A stretch of DNA of 36,514 nt from an uncultured Alcanivorax sp. (GTDB taxonomy: Bacteria > Pseudomonadota > Gammaproteobacteria > Pseudomonadales > Alcanivoracaceae), in NCBI GenBank assembly GCA_913055795.1, contig CAJXLA010000017.1, forward strand, positions 1 through 36,514, read 5' to 3'. Shown here piece by piece: positions 19,161 through 31,149 of the stretch (position 1 is its first letter; the number at the start of each line of letters is the position of its first letter). The position numbers were made by a program, and so were the translations under genes. The notes under the pieces were generated by a model, which saw only the letters and a list, made by a program, of their open reading frames with translations, was not told the DNA's origin and did no database searches.

Positions 19161-21095
19161 ATGCAGCAGCCTGAAGCAAGTCAGCAAAGATCCATCTTCG
19201 AAGCACTGATTCGCTGGCGCGACACCGAACAACTGCGCCCACTGGACCTTGCTCTGGCCCGCTTTTTTGCCGACGAAGGCGGTGAGACCGACGAGACGGT
19301 TCTCCTGCTTGCCGCGCTCGCCAGCCAGCAACTGGGCCACGGCCATATCTGTCTGGATCTGGATCATCTGCTGGCCGATCCCGACGCCCTCTTTACCAGT
19401 GAAGCAGCGGAAACGGAGATGGGGCCGCGGCCCGGCGAACTTCTTGCAGGCACCACCACGGTCTCGCTGACCGAAGCACTGGCGCAATCGCCGGCAGTGG
19501 ATACCGGCGAAGGCAATGCGCCGCTGGTGCTACAACACAATCGCCTTTATCTGCGCCGCTACTGGCAATACGAACAGACCGTGGCGGATCAGCTAAGCCG
19601 CAAGCTGGCCCATGAAACGCAACCACCGGCGAATCTGCGCGCGCGGCTGGAAACCCTCTTTGACGCACCCGGCGAGCAAACGGACTGGCAGAAGGTGGCC
19701 TGTGCCCTGGCGACACGCTCGGCGTTAACGGTGATTACCGGCGGCCCGGGCACGGGCAAGACCACCACGGTGGTGAAACTCCTGGGCCTGCTGCAGTCCG
19801 GCGCCATGGAAAACGACCGCCCGCTGCGGATCCGCCTGGCTGCGCCCACGGGCAAGGCGGCGGCGCGCCTGTCCGGTTCCATTGGCGCGGCCGTCGAAGC
19901 ACTGCCGTTTGCGGATTCGGTGAAAAATGAAATTCCCACCGAACCCACGACCCTGCACCGCCTGCTGGGCCGGCGCCCGGACAGCCGCCACTTCCGCCAC
20001 CACCAGCACAACCCGTTGCACGCGGATCTGGTAGTGGTGGACGAGGCCAGCATGATCGATCTGGAACTCATGGCCGGCCTGCTGGATGCCCTGCGGCCGG
20101 AGACCCGGCTGGTGCTGCTGGGTGACAAGGATCAGCTCGCCTCGGTGGATGCGGGCGCGGTGCTGGGCGATCTCTGCCGCGACGCCGACCGGGGTGGCTA
20201 TGACGAAACCACCTGCGCCTGGGTGGAGGAACAAACCGGCGAAAGCATCGACGCCTTCGCCGGCGACGGCGGCGCCCTGGCGCAGCAGACCGCCATGCTT
20301 CGGCACAACTGGCGCTTTCGCGACGCGCCCGGCATCGGTGAACTGGCCGCCGCGGTCAACGCCGGCGACCCGGGTGCCGCCCGGGCCGTCTGGCAGGCGG
20401 AGCATGACGACCTCGAACAGATCACCCTGGCCGGGCCCCGCGACCGGCGTCTGGCCCGCACCGCCGTGGCCGGGTACAGCCCCTATCTGCAAACCCTGCG
20501 CAACGAACGCCCCGCCAGCATCGATACCGAAGCCAACGACGCCTGGGCGAAAAAAGTGCTCGATGCCTTCACCGGCTTCCAGCTGCTCTGCGCCCTGCGC
20601 CAGGGCCCGGCCGGCGCCGAGGGCCTGAACACCCTGATCGCCGAAGCCCTGCACCAGGCCGGCGAGATCGAACGCGCCGAGGGCTGGTACGAAGGCCGCC
20701 CGGTCATGCTCACCCGCAACGACTATCAGCTGGGCCTGATGAACGGCGACGTAGGCATTACCCTGAACGTGCCCGATCCAGACGGCGCGGCCAGCCGCCT
20801 GCGCGTCGCCTTCCCTCTACCCAACGGCGAGATCCGCATGGTCCTCCCCAGCCGGCTGGACGCCGTGGAAACCGTCTATGCCATGACGGTGCACAAGTCC
20901 CAGGGCTCGGAGTTCGACCACACCGCCCTGGTCCTGCCCGGCATGGACAACCCGGTGCTTACCCGCGAGCTGCTCTACACCGCCATTACCCGCGCAAAGA
21001 AGCGGTTTACCCTGCTCAGCCCGAATCCGGCCGTGGTGGAAAATGCCATTGCGCGGCCGACCTGGCGGGCCTCGGGTCTGGCCGAGCAGTTGTGA
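19161..21095 (+). CDS. recD: Exodeoxyribonuclease V subunit alpha
   Basis: Walker A GGPGTGKTTTVVKLL, LVVVDEASMIDLELMAGLLDAL, MTVHKSQGSEFDHTALVLP, LLYTAITRAKKRFTLLSP. ATG at 19161 with AAGGGA upstream. Confidence 0.95.
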   Translation: MQQPEASQQRSIFEALIRWRDTEQLRPLDLALARFFADEGGETDETVLLLAALASQQLGHGHICLDLDHLLADPDALFTSEAAETEMGPRPGELLAGTTTVSLTEALAQSPAVDTGEGNAPLVLQHNRLYLRRYWQYEQTVADQLSRKLAHETQPPANLRARLETLFDAPGEQTDWQKVACALATRSALTVITGGPGTGKTTTVVKLLGLLQSGAMENDRPLRIRLAAPTGKAAARLSGSIGAAVEALPFADSVKNEIPTEPTTLHRLLGRRPDSRHFRHHQHNPLHADLVVVDEASMIDLELMAGLLDALRPETRLVLLGDKDQLASVDAGAVLGDLCRDADRGGYDETTCAWVEEQTGESIDAFAGDGGALAQQTAMLRHNWRFRDAPGIGELAAAVNAGDPGAARAVWQAEHDDLEQITLAGPRDRRLARTAVAGYSPYLQTLRNERPASIDTEANDAWAKKVLDAFTGFQLLCALRQGPAGAEGLNTLIAEALHQAGEIERAEGWYEGRPVMLTRNDYQLGLMNGDVGITLNVPDPDGAASRLRVAFPLPNGEIRMVLPSRLDAVETVYAMTVHKSQGSEFDHTALVLPGMDNPVLTRELLYTAITRAKKRFTLLSPNPAVVENAIARPTWRASGLAEQL

Positions 21096-21186
21096 CGGGA
21101 CGCGTACACGACGCTAGAATGGAACGGAGGGACCGTTTGGATCCGTCCTCTGGAGCATGGATAGCACAACCGACGTAAGGGACCAC

Positions 21187-21765
21187 ATGACGATCGAGCT
21201 TCACGGAAACTGGCACAAGGGGCTCGCCTTCGATGTTCACACACTGAGCAGCACCTATCTTGGCCCGGATGAAAATGGCTACGAGCACTGGGAAAACGTC
21301 CGGAGCGAAATGGGCGAGCTTCTTTATCAGTTAAAGTATCGGGGTGACAAAACGAAGATTCAAACGATCATTCAGCTTCTGGATCGAATCAAAGGTATTG
21401 AAAACATGGACCTCCTGATTCCGATTCCATCGACAAACCGGAACCGCGAGTTTCAGCCGGTTGTTGAAATTGCGCGAGCCCTTGGCGCTCAACACGGCGT
21501 AGAGACTCTGGATAATGTTTTGCACAAGACTCCAGGCGGTTCTGAACTCAAGAATGTCCTGGATACAGACGAGCGCGAACACTTGTTAAATGAACGTATA
21601 CACCTCACGCCACACGAATCCGTTCCCGGCAGCAAGATCCTTCTTGTCGATAACTTGTACCGATCCGGCGCAACGCTGCGGGCGGCCACCAGCCTCCTTT
21701 ATGAACAGGGAAACGCCGCCACCGTCAATGTTTTGACCATGACCAGAACCCGGAGCAGACGATGA
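21187..21765 (+). CDS. ComF-like phosphoribosyltransferase (PRTase fold)
   Basis: LIPIPSTNRNREFQPVVEIARALG and PRPP-loop-like KILLVDNLYRSGATLRAAT; alternative start at 21157; TAAGGGA RBS before 21187. Confidence 0.75.
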   Translation: MTIELHGNWHKGLAFDVHTLSSTYLGPDENGYEHWENVRSEMGELLYQLKYRGDKTKIQTIIQLLDRIKGIENMDLLIPIPSTNRNREFQPVVEIARALGAQHGVETLDNVLHKTPGGSELKNVLDTDEREHLLNERIHLTPHESVPGSKILLVDNLYRSGATLRAATSLLYEQGNAATVNVLTMTRTRSRR

Positions 21766-22322
21766 CTACTGTATTCGTTGCCGGATCAAGAAACCTTAAA
21801 CAGTTGAGCCCTGAAATTCGTGAGCGACTGGAAAATCTGATCTCCGGTTCGTACGAGATTTTGGTGGGAGATGCCCATGGCGCGGACAAGGCCGTTCAGA
21901 AATTCTTTCTGGAAAAGAATTACCCAAACGTAGTCATCTATTGTTCCGGAAATACGTGCAGAAACAACACCGGGGACTGGCCTGTTCACAACGTTCCCGT
22001 CCCTTCTGATGCAAGGGGACGCGATTTCTATACCAGAAAAGATCTGGAAATGGCCCATGACGCCGATTACGGTTTCATGATCTGGGATGCCAAGAGCCCG
22101 GGGACGATCAGCAATGTTCTGGAATTGCTCAAGGAAGGGAAAAGCGCTCTGGTCCATGTATCGCGGAATTCAAGTTTTCATCGCATCATAACTTGCGAGG
22201 ATCTGGAGAATCTGCTCATGACCTGCTCAAAAGACGATCTGGCCAGTTTGAGCAAAAAAATCCACCTGCAATCACGCATATCGGAAGTTTCGTCTTCAAG
22301 GCAGCAAGCACTTGACCTCTGA
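21762..22322 (+). CDS. SLOG-superfamily-like (YspA/YpsA-related) predicted nucleotide-binding protein
   Basis: N-terminal TVFVAGSRNL, EILVGDAHGADKAVQKFF, AHDADYGFMIWDAKSPGTISNVLELLKEGK; ATGA overlap with the PRTase gene. Confidence 0.7.
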   Translation: MTTVFVAGSRNLKQLSPEIRERLENLISGSYEILVGDAHGADKAVQKFFLEKNYPNVVIYCSGNTCRNNTGDWPVHNVPVPSDARGRDFYTRKDLEMAHDADYGFMIWDAKSPGTISNVLELLKEGKSALVHVSRNSSFHRIITCEDLENLLMTCSKDDLASLSKKIHLQSRISEVSSSRQQALDL

Positions 22323-23261: not shown

Positions 23262-23525
23262 CTATGCATAGTGCGTCCACAGTCGCAGTACTTTGACGAC
23301 ACCCTCCTCTTCCAGCACCTGGTACACAAGGCGATACAGAATATTAATCCTGCGGGAATAGGCCCCTTCGAGATCGCCGACCAGTTTCTCGAAGGGCGGT
23401 GGTTTGCGGAAGGGATCTTCCTCGAGTAACCGGAGCAGTTCCTGTGCTTTGGGTTTGAGACCACTCGAGGCCAGCTTTTCCGCATCCTTTTGAGCCTGCC
23501 GGGTATAGACCAGCTTCCATGTCAC
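23262..23525 (-). CDS. yoeB: YoeB/Txe-family toxin
   Basis: (M)TWKLVYTRQAQKDAEKLASSGLKPKAQELLRLLEEDPFRKPPPFEKLVGDLEGAYSRRINILYRLVYQV; GTG start overlaps the antitoxin stop (GTGA). Confidence 0.9.
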   Translation of the reverse strand: MTWKLVYTRQAQKDAEKLASSGLKPKAQELLRLLEEDPFRKPPPFEKLVGDLEGAYSRRINILYRLVYQVLEEEGVVKVLRLWTHYA

Positions 23526-23764
23526 CAGTCGAGCTCCTCGTCGCACTCATCAGCGGGAGTGTCCATACCTTCCCGAATGGATTCACGCATGCCGGGCACG
23601 GACAACAGGAACAGGGTTTCCTGAATCGCCGCCCAGTCTTCTTCGGCAATCAGTACGGCATTGTTCCGCTTGCCCGTGATCACGACGGGCTCATGCGATT
23701 CCGCCGTTTCATCGATCAACCTGTACAGATTGCTACGCGCCTCGGTCGCCGTAATGTCCGCCAT
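23522..23764 (-). CDS. yefM: YefM/Phd-family antitoxin
   Basis: MADITATEARSNLYRLIDETAESHEPVVITGKRNNAVLIAEEDWAAIQETLFLLSVPGMRESI. Confidence 0.9.
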   Translation of the reverse strand: MADITATEARSNLYRLIDETAESHEPVVITGKRNNAVLIAEEDWAAIQETLFLLSVPGMRESIREGMDTPADECDEELDW

Positions 23765-24865: not shown

Positions 24866-25149
24866 TTATGTGCGCTCGTTCGACGACGAAGGATCTTTCC
24901 GGACATGGAATACGGCCGTCACAATCACGTGATCGCCCTGTACGAAAAAGAATACGCGATACGGGAAGCGTCTTATGGGGATGCGTCGTAATTCTTTGTG
25001 AATCCGGGGATAAATGAGCGGGTTTCTCTCCAGCCTGCTAGACACAGGAGGAAATCGCGCCCGAGCCCCTCTCTTTTCTTTTCGTAATAATCGAATTGCT
25101 CGCCAATATCAAACTCGGCCTCTTGCCGAAGAGTGACCCGGCAACTCAT
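24866..25149 (-). pseudogene. Frameshifted ParE/RelE-family toxin
   Basis: MSCRVTLRQEAEFDIGEQFDYYEKKREGLGRDFLLCLAG then, in another frame, LERNPLIYPRIHKELRRIPIRRFPYRVFFFVQGDHVIVTAVFHVRKDPSSSNERT*; both halves match ParE. Confidence 0.75.
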
Positions 25150-25349
25150 TCCCGAGGCAGTATCCGGGCCTTGACGCTCGACCACGATGAACCTGCGTCC
25201 TGGTCAATCTCGAACGCGGCGAGCCGACGGTCGAGCTCTTCCTTCTGGGACTGCGAGAGTTCGATTTCCGCATCTTCTGCGACAACGCTATCCCACAAGG
25301 CCTCGGCAAGCATGATGCGTTCGGATACGGTCAGTGATTGTATGTCCAT
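25146..25349 (-). CDS. Addiction-module component / ParD-like antitoxin
   Basis: MDIQSLTVSERIMLAEALWDSVVAEDAEIELSQSQKEELDRRLAAFEIDQDAGSSWSSVKARI; overlaps the ParE-like start. Confidence 0.8.
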   Translation of the reverse strand: MDIQSLTVSERIMLAEALWDSVVAEDAEIELSQSQKEELDRRLAAFEIDQDAGSSWSSVKARILPRE

Positions 25350-25627
25350 GACCTTGTTACCTCGGTTCTGAGACAGTCTATTGAAATCGTAATACAGGCA
25401 GGGGCTCGGCTCCTGCACACACAGGGCGCCATACCCGCAAAAGGCAATAGATTGCATCCCCCTCCCCCCGCGCTTTCTCGCAGGGCACGCCCGTTGCGCA
25501 CAGATCGCACACCAGGTCCGCAAATCATTGCGCAACTGACTCCAGCGACACCCGAAAATTGGCACGATCGCCCTAGGCGCGGCAGGCAGGAGGTGCAATC
25601 CTGTTTCCACCTTCACACCGGAACGAG

Positions 25628-25751
25628 GGTGTCGCAAAAGGCAAAGCGTAGGGTGCGCTGTGCGCACCATTGGCCTTCGAAGGTGCGCACAGCGCACCCT
25701 ACAGCTTATTCGAGCGTCCCGGACGCAAAATTCAGAAGCTTTTGCGACACC
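25628..25751. repeat. Nested palindromic element (MITE/REPIN-like)
   Basis: Outer perfect 13-bp IR GGTGTCGCAAAAG (25628..25640)/CTTTTGCGACACC (25739..25751); inner perfect 21-bp IR GTAGGGTGCGCTGTGCGCACC (25648..25668)/GGTGCGCACAGCGCACCCTAC (25682..25702). Confidence 0.8.
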
Positions 25752-25772
25752 TGCAGAACAGGGGGATCCCGC

Positions 25773-27602
25773 ATGCAACTGCCCAGCCCCGCGGAATTCG
25801 CGCGCACCAGTCTCAGCGTCTTCCATGCCGGCCGGCTGCTATGGCTGCGCGCGCGCCTGCCACTGGTTCGCAACCGCCCGCTCATTCTCTGGGGCGACGA
25901 AAGCTGGACCTATGCCGAGGTGTACCGCGAGGCCCAGCGCTACGCGCAGCTGTTCCGCGAACACCGGGAAAAGGCCATCCGCGCCGGCCGGTTGCAGAAG
26001 AACGAGCAGCTCACCATCGGCCTCTACCGCGACAACAGCCCGGCCTACTTTTTCGCCTGCTTCGGCGCCGCACTGGAGGGGGATCTGATCCTCGGACTCA
26101 ATACCGGCTTCCGCGGCCAGATCCTGGCCACCCTGCTGGAGCAAAGCGGTACCCCGCTGGTGCTCACCGACGACGACTATGTGGCCTATCTGGAACAGGC
26201 GCTGGACGGCGTGCCCCAGCTTAAGCGCGACCATGTTCTGGTCGACACCGACCAGCCCCCCGAAGGCATGCAGAGCCTGCCCCGGGCACTCGACAGCGCC
26301 CGCCCGGCCGGCAACGGCCGCAGGCCCCGGGGCGCCGATCCGCTGCTGGTGATCTACACCTCCGGCACCACGGGCACGCCCAAGGGCATTCCCTGCTCGC
26401 ACCTGAAACTGCTCGGCGCCGGCGGGCTCATCGCCGCGCGCATCGGCCTCAAGCGCGACGACCGCGGCTACATCGCCATGCCGCTGTTTCATTCCAACGC
26501 CTGGCTTATCGCGGTCATGCCCACCCTCTTCGCCGGGGCCAGCTTCGTGCTCAAGCCAAAGTTCAGCGCCAGCGCCTTTGCCAATGATGTGCTGGAAAGC
26601 CATGTGACCTGGATGAACTATGTGGGCCAGCCGGTGCACTACATCCTGGCCGCGCTGGAGCAGCGCTTCGGCTCGCCGGAGCAAGTCACCGAGGCGCTGG
26701 CGAGCCACCCGGACAACCACCTGCGCATCGCCTGCGGCAATGGCGCCAGCGCGCGGGACCGGCAGAAGTTCATGCGCTACTTCAACATGGCCCACATCTA
26801 CGAGGTGTACGGCTCCACCGAGGCGGTGATCAGCACCATGCTCATGCCCGGCGACCCGCCGGACAGCGTAGGCTCGGTCTCGAAAGGCGTGATCATCCTG
26901 GATGAAAACGGCAACGAATGCCCGCCCGCCCAGGTGGACAACGACGGCCGCATCCTCAATTACGACGAGGCCGTGGGCGAGATCTGCGCGAAGATCAACC
27001 CGAACAACCTGCGCTTCGACGGCTACTTCGGCAACCCGGAGGCCACCAACAGGAAGTACGACGGCAATATCTACCACTCCGGGGATCTGGGCCATACCCG
27101 CAAGGTGAAGGGCAAGCGCTACCTTTATTTCGACGGCCGCACCGACGACTGGATCCGCAAGGACGGCGAGAACTTCTCCGCCGACACCGTCGCCCACTTC
27201 GCACAGGACCTGCCCGGCGTGCACCTGGCCGCCGCCTATGGCGTGCCCGACCCGGTCGCCGACGAACGCGTGGCCGTGGCCCTGCAGCTGGAACCCGGCG
27301 AGCGCTTCGATCCGCAGGCCGCGTTCGACCGCTTCATCGAACAGCAGAAGAACGAAGGCATGGACCCGAAGTGGATGCCGGATTTCATCCGCATCGAGGA
27401 ACAACTCCCCATGTCCGAAACCAACAAGGTGCTGGTCCGCCACCTGCGCAAGGAAGGCTACAACCTGGACGCCAACCCGGACATGGCGATCTGGTTCCGC
27501 GAACGCGGGGATCAGGCCTACAAGAAACTCACGCCGGACGAGTTCGAGCGCCTGAAGAAAACCTTCGAGGACAATGGCCGGGCCCAGGCCCTGGTTGCCT
27601 GA
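25773..27602 (+). CDS. AMP-dependent acyl-CoA synthetase/ligase
   Basis: LLVIYTSGTTGTPKGIPCSH, EVYGSTEA, YHSGDLG, YFDGRTDDWIRKDGENFSADTV motifs; ATG at 25773. Confidence 0.9.
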   Translation: MQLPSPAEFARTSLSVFHAGRLLWLRARLPLVRNRPLILWGDESWTYAEVYREAQRYAQLFREHREKAIRAGRLQKNEQLTIGLYRDNSPAYFFACFGAALEGDLILGLNTGFRGQILATLLEQSGTPLVLTDDDYVAYLEQALDGVPQLKRDHVLVDTDQPPEGMQSLPRALDSARPAGNGRRPRGADPLLVIYTSGTTGTPKGIPCSHLKLLGAGGLIAARIGLKRDDRGYIAMPLFHSNAWLIAVMPTLFAGASFVLKPKFSASAFANDVLESHVTWMNYVGQPVHYILAALEQRFGSPEQVTEALASHPDNHLRIACGNGASARDRQKFMRYFNMAHIYEVYGSTEAVISTMLMPGDPPDSVGSVSKGVIILDENGNECPPAQVDNDGRILNYDEAVGEICAKINPNNLRFDGYFGNPEATNRKYDGNIYHSGDLGHTRKVKGKRYLYFDGRTDDWIRKDGENFSADTVAHFAQDLPGVHLAAAYGVPDPVADERVAVALQLEPGERFDPQAAFDRFIEQQKNEGMDPKWMPDFIRIEEQLPMSETNKVLVRHLRKEGYNLDANPDMAIWFRERGDQAYKKLTPDEFERLKKTFEDNGRAQALVA

Positions 27603-29000: not shown

Positions 29001-29771
29001 TTAATCTCGAAATTGCTGCTCACGATGCCATTTCAGAAAGTCAGTATTGGGAGAGAACTTCTCCGGCAACAGAAGCTTTTCGCCCTCTCGTGCAACAAAT
29101 GTCTCTCGAATATGGCCATTTCCGCTTTGCTCTTTGATTTCCGATGAAACCAAAAGCTCGAAATTCTCAGAGAAAGATACAAGCCCGATATCAAAAGCCC
29201 TATCGAAAAATGTGCTTAGGCATAGCCCATTACGCGGATTCAACCGGTTCTCTGAATCCTTCGACCAAGGCTTGATATGACTCGCTACAAGCAAACGGGC
29301 ATCCGAGACGCCGGTCATAGCGCAGCGGAATTCATAGGAGGAAAGAACGGCATCTCGAAATAAGTTTTGCCCCTTTCTTCGTTTCGATTTTCCTTCAACC
29401 TCCGGCGCAGAATAGTCTTCTATCCTTTCGGCCTCCCCTTTTTCAAGCCCATATCCTTCAGGGTCAATTCGAAACTGCTCCAGCTGGGTTTCGATTTCCG
29501 GCATAAGGCGGTTGGTTCCCGCCATAAACTCCTGCCATATCGCACGATCGGCAGCTGAAGCGCCCGGAAGCCCCGAGCGCCCCGACCCTGTAATATCTGG
29601 ATCCAGACTAGCCAGATTGGAAAGCTTCATTGCTAGCGCACTGGGAGTCCGCCCAATAGCTTCGGCCGCAGCGATAATCTTTGGGTTGTTCTGATGAAAC
29701 TGCCCGAAAGGAATCTCACAGTAGAGCCCTAACGCAAGCAGAAGCTGCTCTCTCGTCCAGTTATTAGCCAT
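29001..29771 (-). CDS. HNH endonuclease (HNH_2/PF13391-like C-terminus)
   Basis: FRDAVLSSYEFRCAMTGVSDARLLVASHIKPWSKDSENRLNPRNGLCLSTFFDRAFDIGLVSF. Confidence 0.88.
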   Translation of the reverse strand: MANNWTREQLLLALGLYCEIPFGQFHQNNPKIIAAAEAIGRTPSALAMKLSNLASLDPDITGSGRSGLPGASAADRAIWQEFMAGTNRLMPEIETQLEQFRIDPEGYGLEKGEAERIEDYSAPEVEGKSKRRKGQNLFRDAVLSSYEFRCAMTGVSDARLLVASHIKPWSKDSENRLNPRNGLCLSTFFDRAFDIGLVSFSENFELLVSSEIKEQSGNGHIRETFVAREGEKLLLPEKFSPNTDFLKWHREQQFRD

Positions 29772-30216: not shown

Positions 30217-31149
30217 TCAAAGAAGGCTTCCCTTCCTCCGAGCTAGAAACTCCTCCTTCGGCCAGAGCCGCTGCTCCCTCGGAAGAATCAACTTTGTTTT
30301 GTCGAGCCGTGTCAGCGGGTCGTTCTCTCGCATTCTTCGGTCCAGTTGCCGGGATACATGCCACTTGTAGTCCGGTCCCGGCGCGATGATTTGCTTGTCC
30401 ATGGCCCAATGAATATCGGGAGTTAGCGCCAGCCCATTTCGCGGGTCGTCATTGCCGGCTACGGAAAACGGCTCGATATGGGCGGCCTGCACCATTACGG
30501 ATTCGTCTGGGAGAATGATGCGCGTACCGGTGGCGGCGCAGCGGTAGTCGTAGGCTTCGAGCACAACCCGCCGGAAGGCCGGATCGCGAATATATTGCGG
30601 GGGGGCCTCGCCGACTGCGGGAGCGGACTCGAAGTTGCGAAGCTGATGCTCGTACTGGTTGATCTGCCGGCCGCGCCTAAGCATTTCGCGGATTTCGTCT
30701 GCACTTCGGTCGAACCAGTGCTGGACGATCGCTTCCGCCAGCACTTCCCGCGCTTCGGTGTCGCGCATCAGCTGGTACAGGTCTTCATCCAGCGAGACAT
30801 GGGAGATGTTGCCGAGAACCTGGGACGGCTTGCGGATGGTGTTCAGCCCCTCCAGTACCTGCTCACGCTCCGGCAGCGCGTGCAGGTGCCAGAACCCCTC
30901 GCTTTTCAGATGAAAGAACGGGAAGTACGGGTGTGGATGGTCACCGGGCGCACTGACCGTTCTGAAAAAGCCGTGGAAACGGTCCAACAGTTGCGGCTCG
31001 TATTCGATGCGGTTGGGGCGGTCCGGATTGGCGTCGAACAGGTCGATCACCGCCAGCAGCATGCACATCTTGTGCGGGCTGACCTTGCCGTGGGCCCTGT
31101 TCACGTTCAGCTTGCGAACCTTGTCGAGGTAGGGCCCGAGCTCAGTCAT
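30217..31149 (-). CDS. HNH restriction endonuclease with N-terminal domain resembling the phosphorothioate-binding SBD of ScoMcrA-type enzymes
   Basis: N-terminus RKLNVNRAHGKVSPHKMCMLLAVIDLF...YFPFFHLKSEGFWHL; C-terminus FRRVVLEAYDYRCAATGTRI...MVQAAHIEPFSVAGNDDPRNGLALTPDIHWAMDK. Confidence 0.8.
   Translation of the reverse strand: MTELGPYLDKVRKLNVNRAHGKVSPHKMCMLLAVIDLFDANPDRPNRIEYEPQLLDRFHGFFRTVSAPGDHPHPYFPFFHLKSEGFWHLHALPEREQVLEGLNTIRKPSQVLGNISHVSLDEDLYQLMRDTEAREVLAEAIVQHWFDRSADEIREMLRRGRQINQYEHQLRNFESAPAVGEAPPQYIRDPAFRRVVLEAYDYRCAATGTRIILPDESVMVQAAHIEPFSVAGNDDPRNGLALTPDIHWAMDKQIIAPGPDYKWHVSRQLDRRMRENDPLTRLDKTKLILPREQRLWPKEEFLARRKGSLL

Follow-up and report, generated by a model that had tools for sequence, protein, structure and literature searches.

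The locus examined here raises the question of what two small overlapping genes, one for a ComF-like phosphoribosyltransferase (PRTase) and one for a SLOG-like protein, are doing together downstream of recC, recB and recD in DNA from an uncultured Alcanivorax sp. (the window, that is, the whole stretch of 36,514 nucleotides that was analysed). The pair is most likely a compact relative of the anti-phage toxin-antitoxin systems ShosTA and PsyrTA. It is fairly probable that its family belongs to the PRTase-DprA/SLOG kind of mobile module and serves as a toxin-antitoxin (abortive-infection) system, whose toxicity, neutralisation, trigger and anti-phage effect we infer. This reading is based on predicted folds, gene pairing, co-divergence, mobility, defence neighbours, gains of helix-turn-helix (HTH) domains and loss of the PRTase.

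Both genes lie on the forward strand. The first (21187-21765) encodes a compact ComF-like type I PRTase of 192 amino acids, the proposed toxin, and the second (21762-22322) encodes a SLOG/DprA-fold protein of 186 amino acids that lacks an HTH, the proposed antitoxin. Their start and stop codons overlap by 4 bp as ATGA (21762-21765, +), which suggests that the two are translationally coupled. The preliminary description had reported this arrangement, a PRTase loop (ILLVDNLYRSGATL), the SLOG motifs GSRNL, GDAHGADKA and WDAKSPGT, an adjacent recBCD cluster and a lower GC content than that of recBCD, and all of these are found in the window, with recC, recB and recD upstream in this order. The cassette has a GC content of 50.2% vs 62.2% in the remaining window, GC3 is 0.59 in the PRTase gene and 0.55 in the SLOG gene compared to 0.74-0.80 in recBCD, and among 708 sliding segments (1136 bp, step 50) only 3 that lie clear of the cassette were as AT-rich. 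An alternative in-frame ATG for the PRTase exists at 21157; homologue alignments support the ATG at 21187, which is preceded by a Shine-Dalgarno-like AAGGGA. The 91 bp between recD and the PRTase gene (21096-21186, +) presumably hold the promoter and ribosome binding site, though a scan of the locus for promoters and terminators was uninformative and the weak sigma-70-like match at 21092-21120 is a consensus match only. Homologues taken from collections of genomes and viruses gave alignments of 58 PRTase and 57 SLOG sequences. The ORF pair lies far outside what chance would produce, since 57-58 non-redundant homologues could be aligned per protein and the SLOG alignment, which covers about a dozen phyla, has 19 invariant columns.

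About 1 kb downstream of the cassette (23262-23764, -) is a second toxin-antitoxin pair, consisting of a YefM-type antitoxin (PF02604, 1e-18) and a ParE/YoeB-type toxin (PF05016/PF06769). An ORF at 25146-25826 (-), whose start is provisional, ends in a PF09720 'putative addiction module component' domain (1e-14). Two genes, at 29001-29771 (-) and 30217-31149 (-), encode HNH_2 endonucleases with a relationship to restriction enzymes of phosphorothioated DNA; the former matches the PADLOC model PDLC04132 'HNH' at 4e-101 and lies in an AT-rich stretch of 52-54% GC.

The PRTase could be assigned from its sequence. It matched NCBIfam comF at 4.6e-10 and, among PADLOC profiles, the PRTase domain of PsyrT at 8.8e-11 and, more weakly, ShosT at 5.8e-6; homologous PRTases matched the PsyrT PRTase domain at 9e-8 to 4e-19. 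Its AlphaFold2 model (pLDDT 94.5) has a type I PRTase fold with the PRPP loop in place, the second acidic residue of that loop being N in the window copy. Foldseek against the PDB placed H. pylori ComF first (HpComF, 7p0h, 3e-6) and ShosT next (8zvd at 2.7e-5, also 8zvc and 8zvb). For the SLOG protein no significant family was found by Pfam, NCBIfam or PADLOC, and structure prediction was needed because neither its sequence alone nor a profile found a match in the PDB. Its model (pLDDT 96.1) had ShosA as the top Foldseek match (8zva, 1.1e-5), followed by H. pylori DprA (HpDprA, 6e-4), with moderate TM-scores of 0.57-0.59 on the query; LOG-type SLOG enzymes and the SLOG domain of ThsA were also among the matches. 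An hhalign comparison of the SLOG family with DprA/ShosA aligned 155 columns with the motifs in register (E 7e-4), at a probability of only 27%. The SLOG/DprA assignment is carried by the match of the predicted fold and not by the profile comparison.

The PRTase and SLOG genes form one unit with near-obligate pairing. When 399 Pseudomonadota genomes were sampled in an even draw, SLOG was present in 7 (6/213 genera), and the cognate PRTase was immediately upstream in all 7, scoring at least 183 bits. The remaining PRTase matches in the 399 genomes scored at most 57 bits and resemble ordinary comF genes. An intact adjacent PRTase was found in 83 of 100 SLOG-seeded loci, with four others stopping at a contig edge, and SLOG was found on 21/21 PRTase-seeded viral contigs. 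The overlap is exactly 4 bp, as in the window, in 25 of the 83 homologous pairs. Pairwise distances of the two proteins were correlated (Mantel r 0.80, compared to a maximum of 0.17 over 2000 permutations), and therefore both genes travel together. One SLOG gene without a PRTase (L025:8001-8552) lies downstream of an ORF that has an E-x-K motif and resembles a restriction enzyme; this lone SLOG tells against the toxin-antitoxin reading.

The relatives of the cassette are distributed sporadically over about a dozen phyla, plasmids and prophages. SLOG was found in 98 plasmid records, 55 of them predicted to be conjugative, and no SLOG of this family was found in INPHARED phage records. The relatives' cassettes were GC-poorer than their own flanks in 79/79 loci, with a median difference of 8 points. 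Two copies are in P2-like prophages of E. coli, one between the genes for the portal and the replication endonuclease and one between tail genes and ogr; a DprA-PRTase defence system has been described in a variable locus of P2-like phages (PMC9122126). Known defence systems often lie next to the pair. E. coli copies adjoin a HamA-type gene, an ABC-three-component system and, on plasmids, either a type II restriction enzyme with a cytosine methyltransferase or ParDE, parA and a recombinase; a Sinorhizobium plasmid copy adjoins CBASS genes (E2, SAVED-HNH effector) and a SIR2 gene, and a Xanthomonas plasmid copy adjoins an OLD/GajA-like ATPase. In the 139 ORFs nearest to the pair at homologous loci, PADLOC detected components of Kiwa, AbiE, CBASS and type I R-M, compared to 1 weak match among 63 neighbours of ordinary comF genes. 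This neighbourhood is supportive of a role in defence, but it is not taken as a measured enrichment because comF is a housekeeping gene and thus an imperfect control. In one Neisseria gonorrhoeae record the pair (L003:3435-4549) is directly upstream of a carB-like frame (carbamoyl-phosphate synthase large subunit), and the record has no annotation there. Overall, the ComF-like PRTase and SLOG folds proposed in the preliminary description are backed by the AlphaFold models and Foldseek matches, and its expectations of a two-gene unit conserved in other genomes, of horizontal acquisition and of a defence setting agree with the SLOG-bearing Pseudomonadota genomes, with the plasmid and prophage copies and GC deviation, and with the known defence systems next to relatives.

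In the proposed module the PRTase would be a PRPP-using toxin that, if unrestrained, poisons DNA or the metabolism of nucleotides. Its restraint would come from the SLOG/DprA-fold protein translated along with it, which, if it resembles ShosA and DprA in this, may also detect DNA or an infection-altered nucleotide state. If that restraint failed under phage attack, the PRTase would halt cell and phage alike. The genotoxicity of RqlHI resides in the PRTase domain, mutants in the PRPP pocket of RqlH are non-toxic, and the DprA-like RqlI restrains RqlH (PMC4670107). PMC12593503 states that ShosTA acts via purine metabolism and, citing Pu et al. 2025, describes ShosT as a PRTase/pyrophosphatase that disturbs purine metabolism, ShosA as a DNA-binding antitoxin and T7 Gp0.7 as the trigger.

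The toxin-antitoxin reading is favoured because these nearest characterised systems are toxin-antitoxin systems, and because SLOGs have twice gained an HTH of antitoxin type while PRTases break and SLOGs stay. Type II toxin-antitoxin systems are small co-translated pairs on mobile elements whose antitoxin has a DNA-binding domain; the family shows the pairing and the mobility, and such a domain in some relatives but not in the window copy. A C-terminal HTH is present on 21 of 108 SLOG relatives. It belongs either to PF21716 'probable addiction module antidote' (best E 7.5e-23) or to PF13744 HTH_37 (best E 1.4e-20), types with separate origins on the tree. One SLOG (L060:8001-9299) is extended instead by a region that weakly matches DUF5677. 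As for PRTase loss, 7 Pseudomonas loci with an intact SLOG are missing either the N-terminal portion of the PRTase or almost the whole of it, with at least 5 different breakpoints among them. Their nucleotide identity to an intact homologue is 87-94% and continues through SLOG, though some of these truncations could be recombination junctions and not the result of selection against a toxin. In four other loci (L013, L026, L032, L061) a frameshift or stop interrupts the PRTase, and frameshifts in MAGs can be assembly errors. There is also a counter-case, a clonal E. coli island (54 genomes) in which the SLOG behind an intact PRTase has decayed. That island (L175:3016-5603 in E. coli S30, shared by 53 further genomes of the species) holds two tandem modules of different clades, the second of them intact and directly downstream of the decayed SLOG of the first. 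Either the second SLOG cross-protects, or the first PRTase is silent or not strongly toxic.

Whether the window copy itself is active is a separate matter. Its PRPP-binding loop (D155-N156-L-Y-R-S160, 21649-21666, +) reads VDNLYRSGAT, and residue 156 is D in 57 of the 58 aligned PRTases and N only here. The toxin of the window copy may be weakened or inactive because D156N is unique in an otherwise near-invariant DD motif, which would be in line with the trend to PRTase loss in the family. Taken further, the copy would be a decaying remnant that has lost toxin activity and persists as an anti-addiction or neutral element. This is compatible with a toxin-antitoxin role for the family, and the retention of SLOGs where PRTases are lost fits it. 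Apart from this residue, however, both window ORFs have their full length and are predicted to fold well, and N at position 156 is still capable of hydrogen bonds. Decay of this copy is possible but rather doubtful. Three residues further on, position 159 (21661-21663), just before the [ST]G of the loop, is R in 23 sequences and D/H in 31. A D at this position would presumably occupy the site of the HPRT catalytic base, and the split may reflect different chemistry.

The conservation of the SLOG pocket is striking. The invariant motifs GS, GDAxGxD and SxG contribute to 19 invariant columns, more than simple binding of a toxin requires, and this counts against the module. GS, GDAxGxD and WDxxSxGTxxN correspond to the nucleotide-pocket motifs of SLOG proteins, and most of the invariant columns fall in them, which suggests that the pocket binds a ligand. 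It is conceivable, though unlikely, that the PRTase makes a nucleotide derivative upon infection and that the SLOG pocket binds or hydrolyses it, either as a signal partner or as an enzymatic antidote. The LOG-type enzymes and ThsA SLOG domain among the fold matches agree with this, and LOG-type SLOG enzymes cleave nucleotides to base and ribose phosphate. However, the LOG catalytic motif, presumably GTxxE, is replaced by G[TS]xxN in every aligned SLOG, and the closest folds are those of ShosA and DprA, which bind DNA. The HTH fusions point to autoregulation and, together with PRTase decay, are better explained by a toxin and its antitoxin. A more specific version, which we regard as quite improbable, would have SLOG dismantle or sequester a toxic or signalling nucleotide that the PRTase builds from PRPP and a base. 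The two proteins would then run opposite reactions, and SLOG would also sense infection and, in relatives that carry the HTH, act as a repressor that responds to a metabolite.

The position next to recBCD, which the preliminary description called compatible with a defence module, is incidental because tblastn of the window RecB, RecC and RecD against the fetched flanks of about 107 homologous loci gave no match at any of them. Where DprA has the arginine that touches ssDNA (PMC4066776), 27 of 57 SLOGs have R and the others I, M or L, so DprA-like DNA binding cannot be assumed family-wide. The idea of a competence or recombination accessory, in which a ComF/DprA-like pair would handle incoming ssDNA with RecBCD, draws on the ComF and DprA homologies and the location beside recBCD but is very improbable given this absence of recBCD elsewhere, the partly conserved arginine, the sporadic distribution on mobile elements and the ordinary full-length DprA that the host genome already has.

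If the toxin-antitoxin reading is true, PRTase-DprA/SLOG defence is broader than ShosTA and PsyrTA and includes a minimal form, about 1.1 kb long and with a single domain in each protein, that is spread over roughly a dozen phyla and occurs on conjugative plasmids and in prophages. This form escapes the antitoxin models of the PADLOC release that was searched. Having two core domains only, it should simplify tests of the PRTase substrate and of the ligand of the SLOG pocket, and copies from plasmids and prophages of E. coli lend themselves to direct assay.

The comparison with known systems places the pair closest to ShosTA and PsyrTA/RqlHI. ShosTA consists of the PRTase toxin ShosT and the DprA-like antitoxin ShosA and is found in P2-like and Pf phages. 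The window pair shares with it the adjacent PRTase and DprA/SLOG genes, ShosT and ShosA are among the best solved structures for both window proteins, and family homologues also occur in P2-like prophages. However, ShosT has 424 amino acids (8zvc) and an extra N-terminal region that the window PRTase lacks, and the window SLOG is a Rossmann-like domain only, about 18% identical to ShosA over the structural alignment. PADLOC ShosA models gave no match to it at E up to 1, whereas the host DprA matches ShosA at 6e-61. Also unlike ShosTA, some compact-family relatives bear the C-terminal antitoxin HTH, and the PRTase gene comes first, whereas DprA is first in the P2, Mana and Riah loci. These reference loci were taken from phage records because a search of 249 genomes with the ShosT PADLOC profile found only an ordinary comF-like gene. 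With PsyrTA/RqlHI the pair shares the toxin-first order and a PRTase whose nearest match in sequence is the PRTase at the C-terminus of PsyrT, and RqlI also has a C-terminal HTH (PMC4670107), as some compact-family relatives do. The difference is that PsyrT/RqlH is a RecQ helicase-PRTase fusion, whereas the window has a stand-alone PRTase with recD upstream and no RecQ helicase, and the PADLOC PsyrA profile did not match the window SLOG or homologous SLOGs.

More distant likenesses are limited to single domains. The HTH domains of relatives fall in the same families as HI1420-type and HTH_37 antitoxins, but neutralisation would here fall to the SLOG domain instead of the HTH, which is absent from the window copy. 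The Rossmann-like SLOG fold and glycine-rich nucleotide-binding motifs are shared with LOG, YpsA and ThsA, but N stands in place of the catalytic E of LOG and there is no TIR or SIR2 partner gene. The preliminary description knew of no described PRTase-SLOG defence module, which does not hold since ShosTA, in which the PRTase is paired with DprA, itself a SLOG protein, and PsyrTA/RqlHI have been published (PMC9122126, PMC4670107, PMC12593503). A search of largely open-access literature found no SLOG-PRTase pair outside ShosTA/PsyrTA. The kind is already known, and the compact family is a distinct variant of it, set apart by its own sequence signature, its single-domain PRTase and SLOG, an optional antitoxin HTH and an antitoxin that PADLOC models miss.
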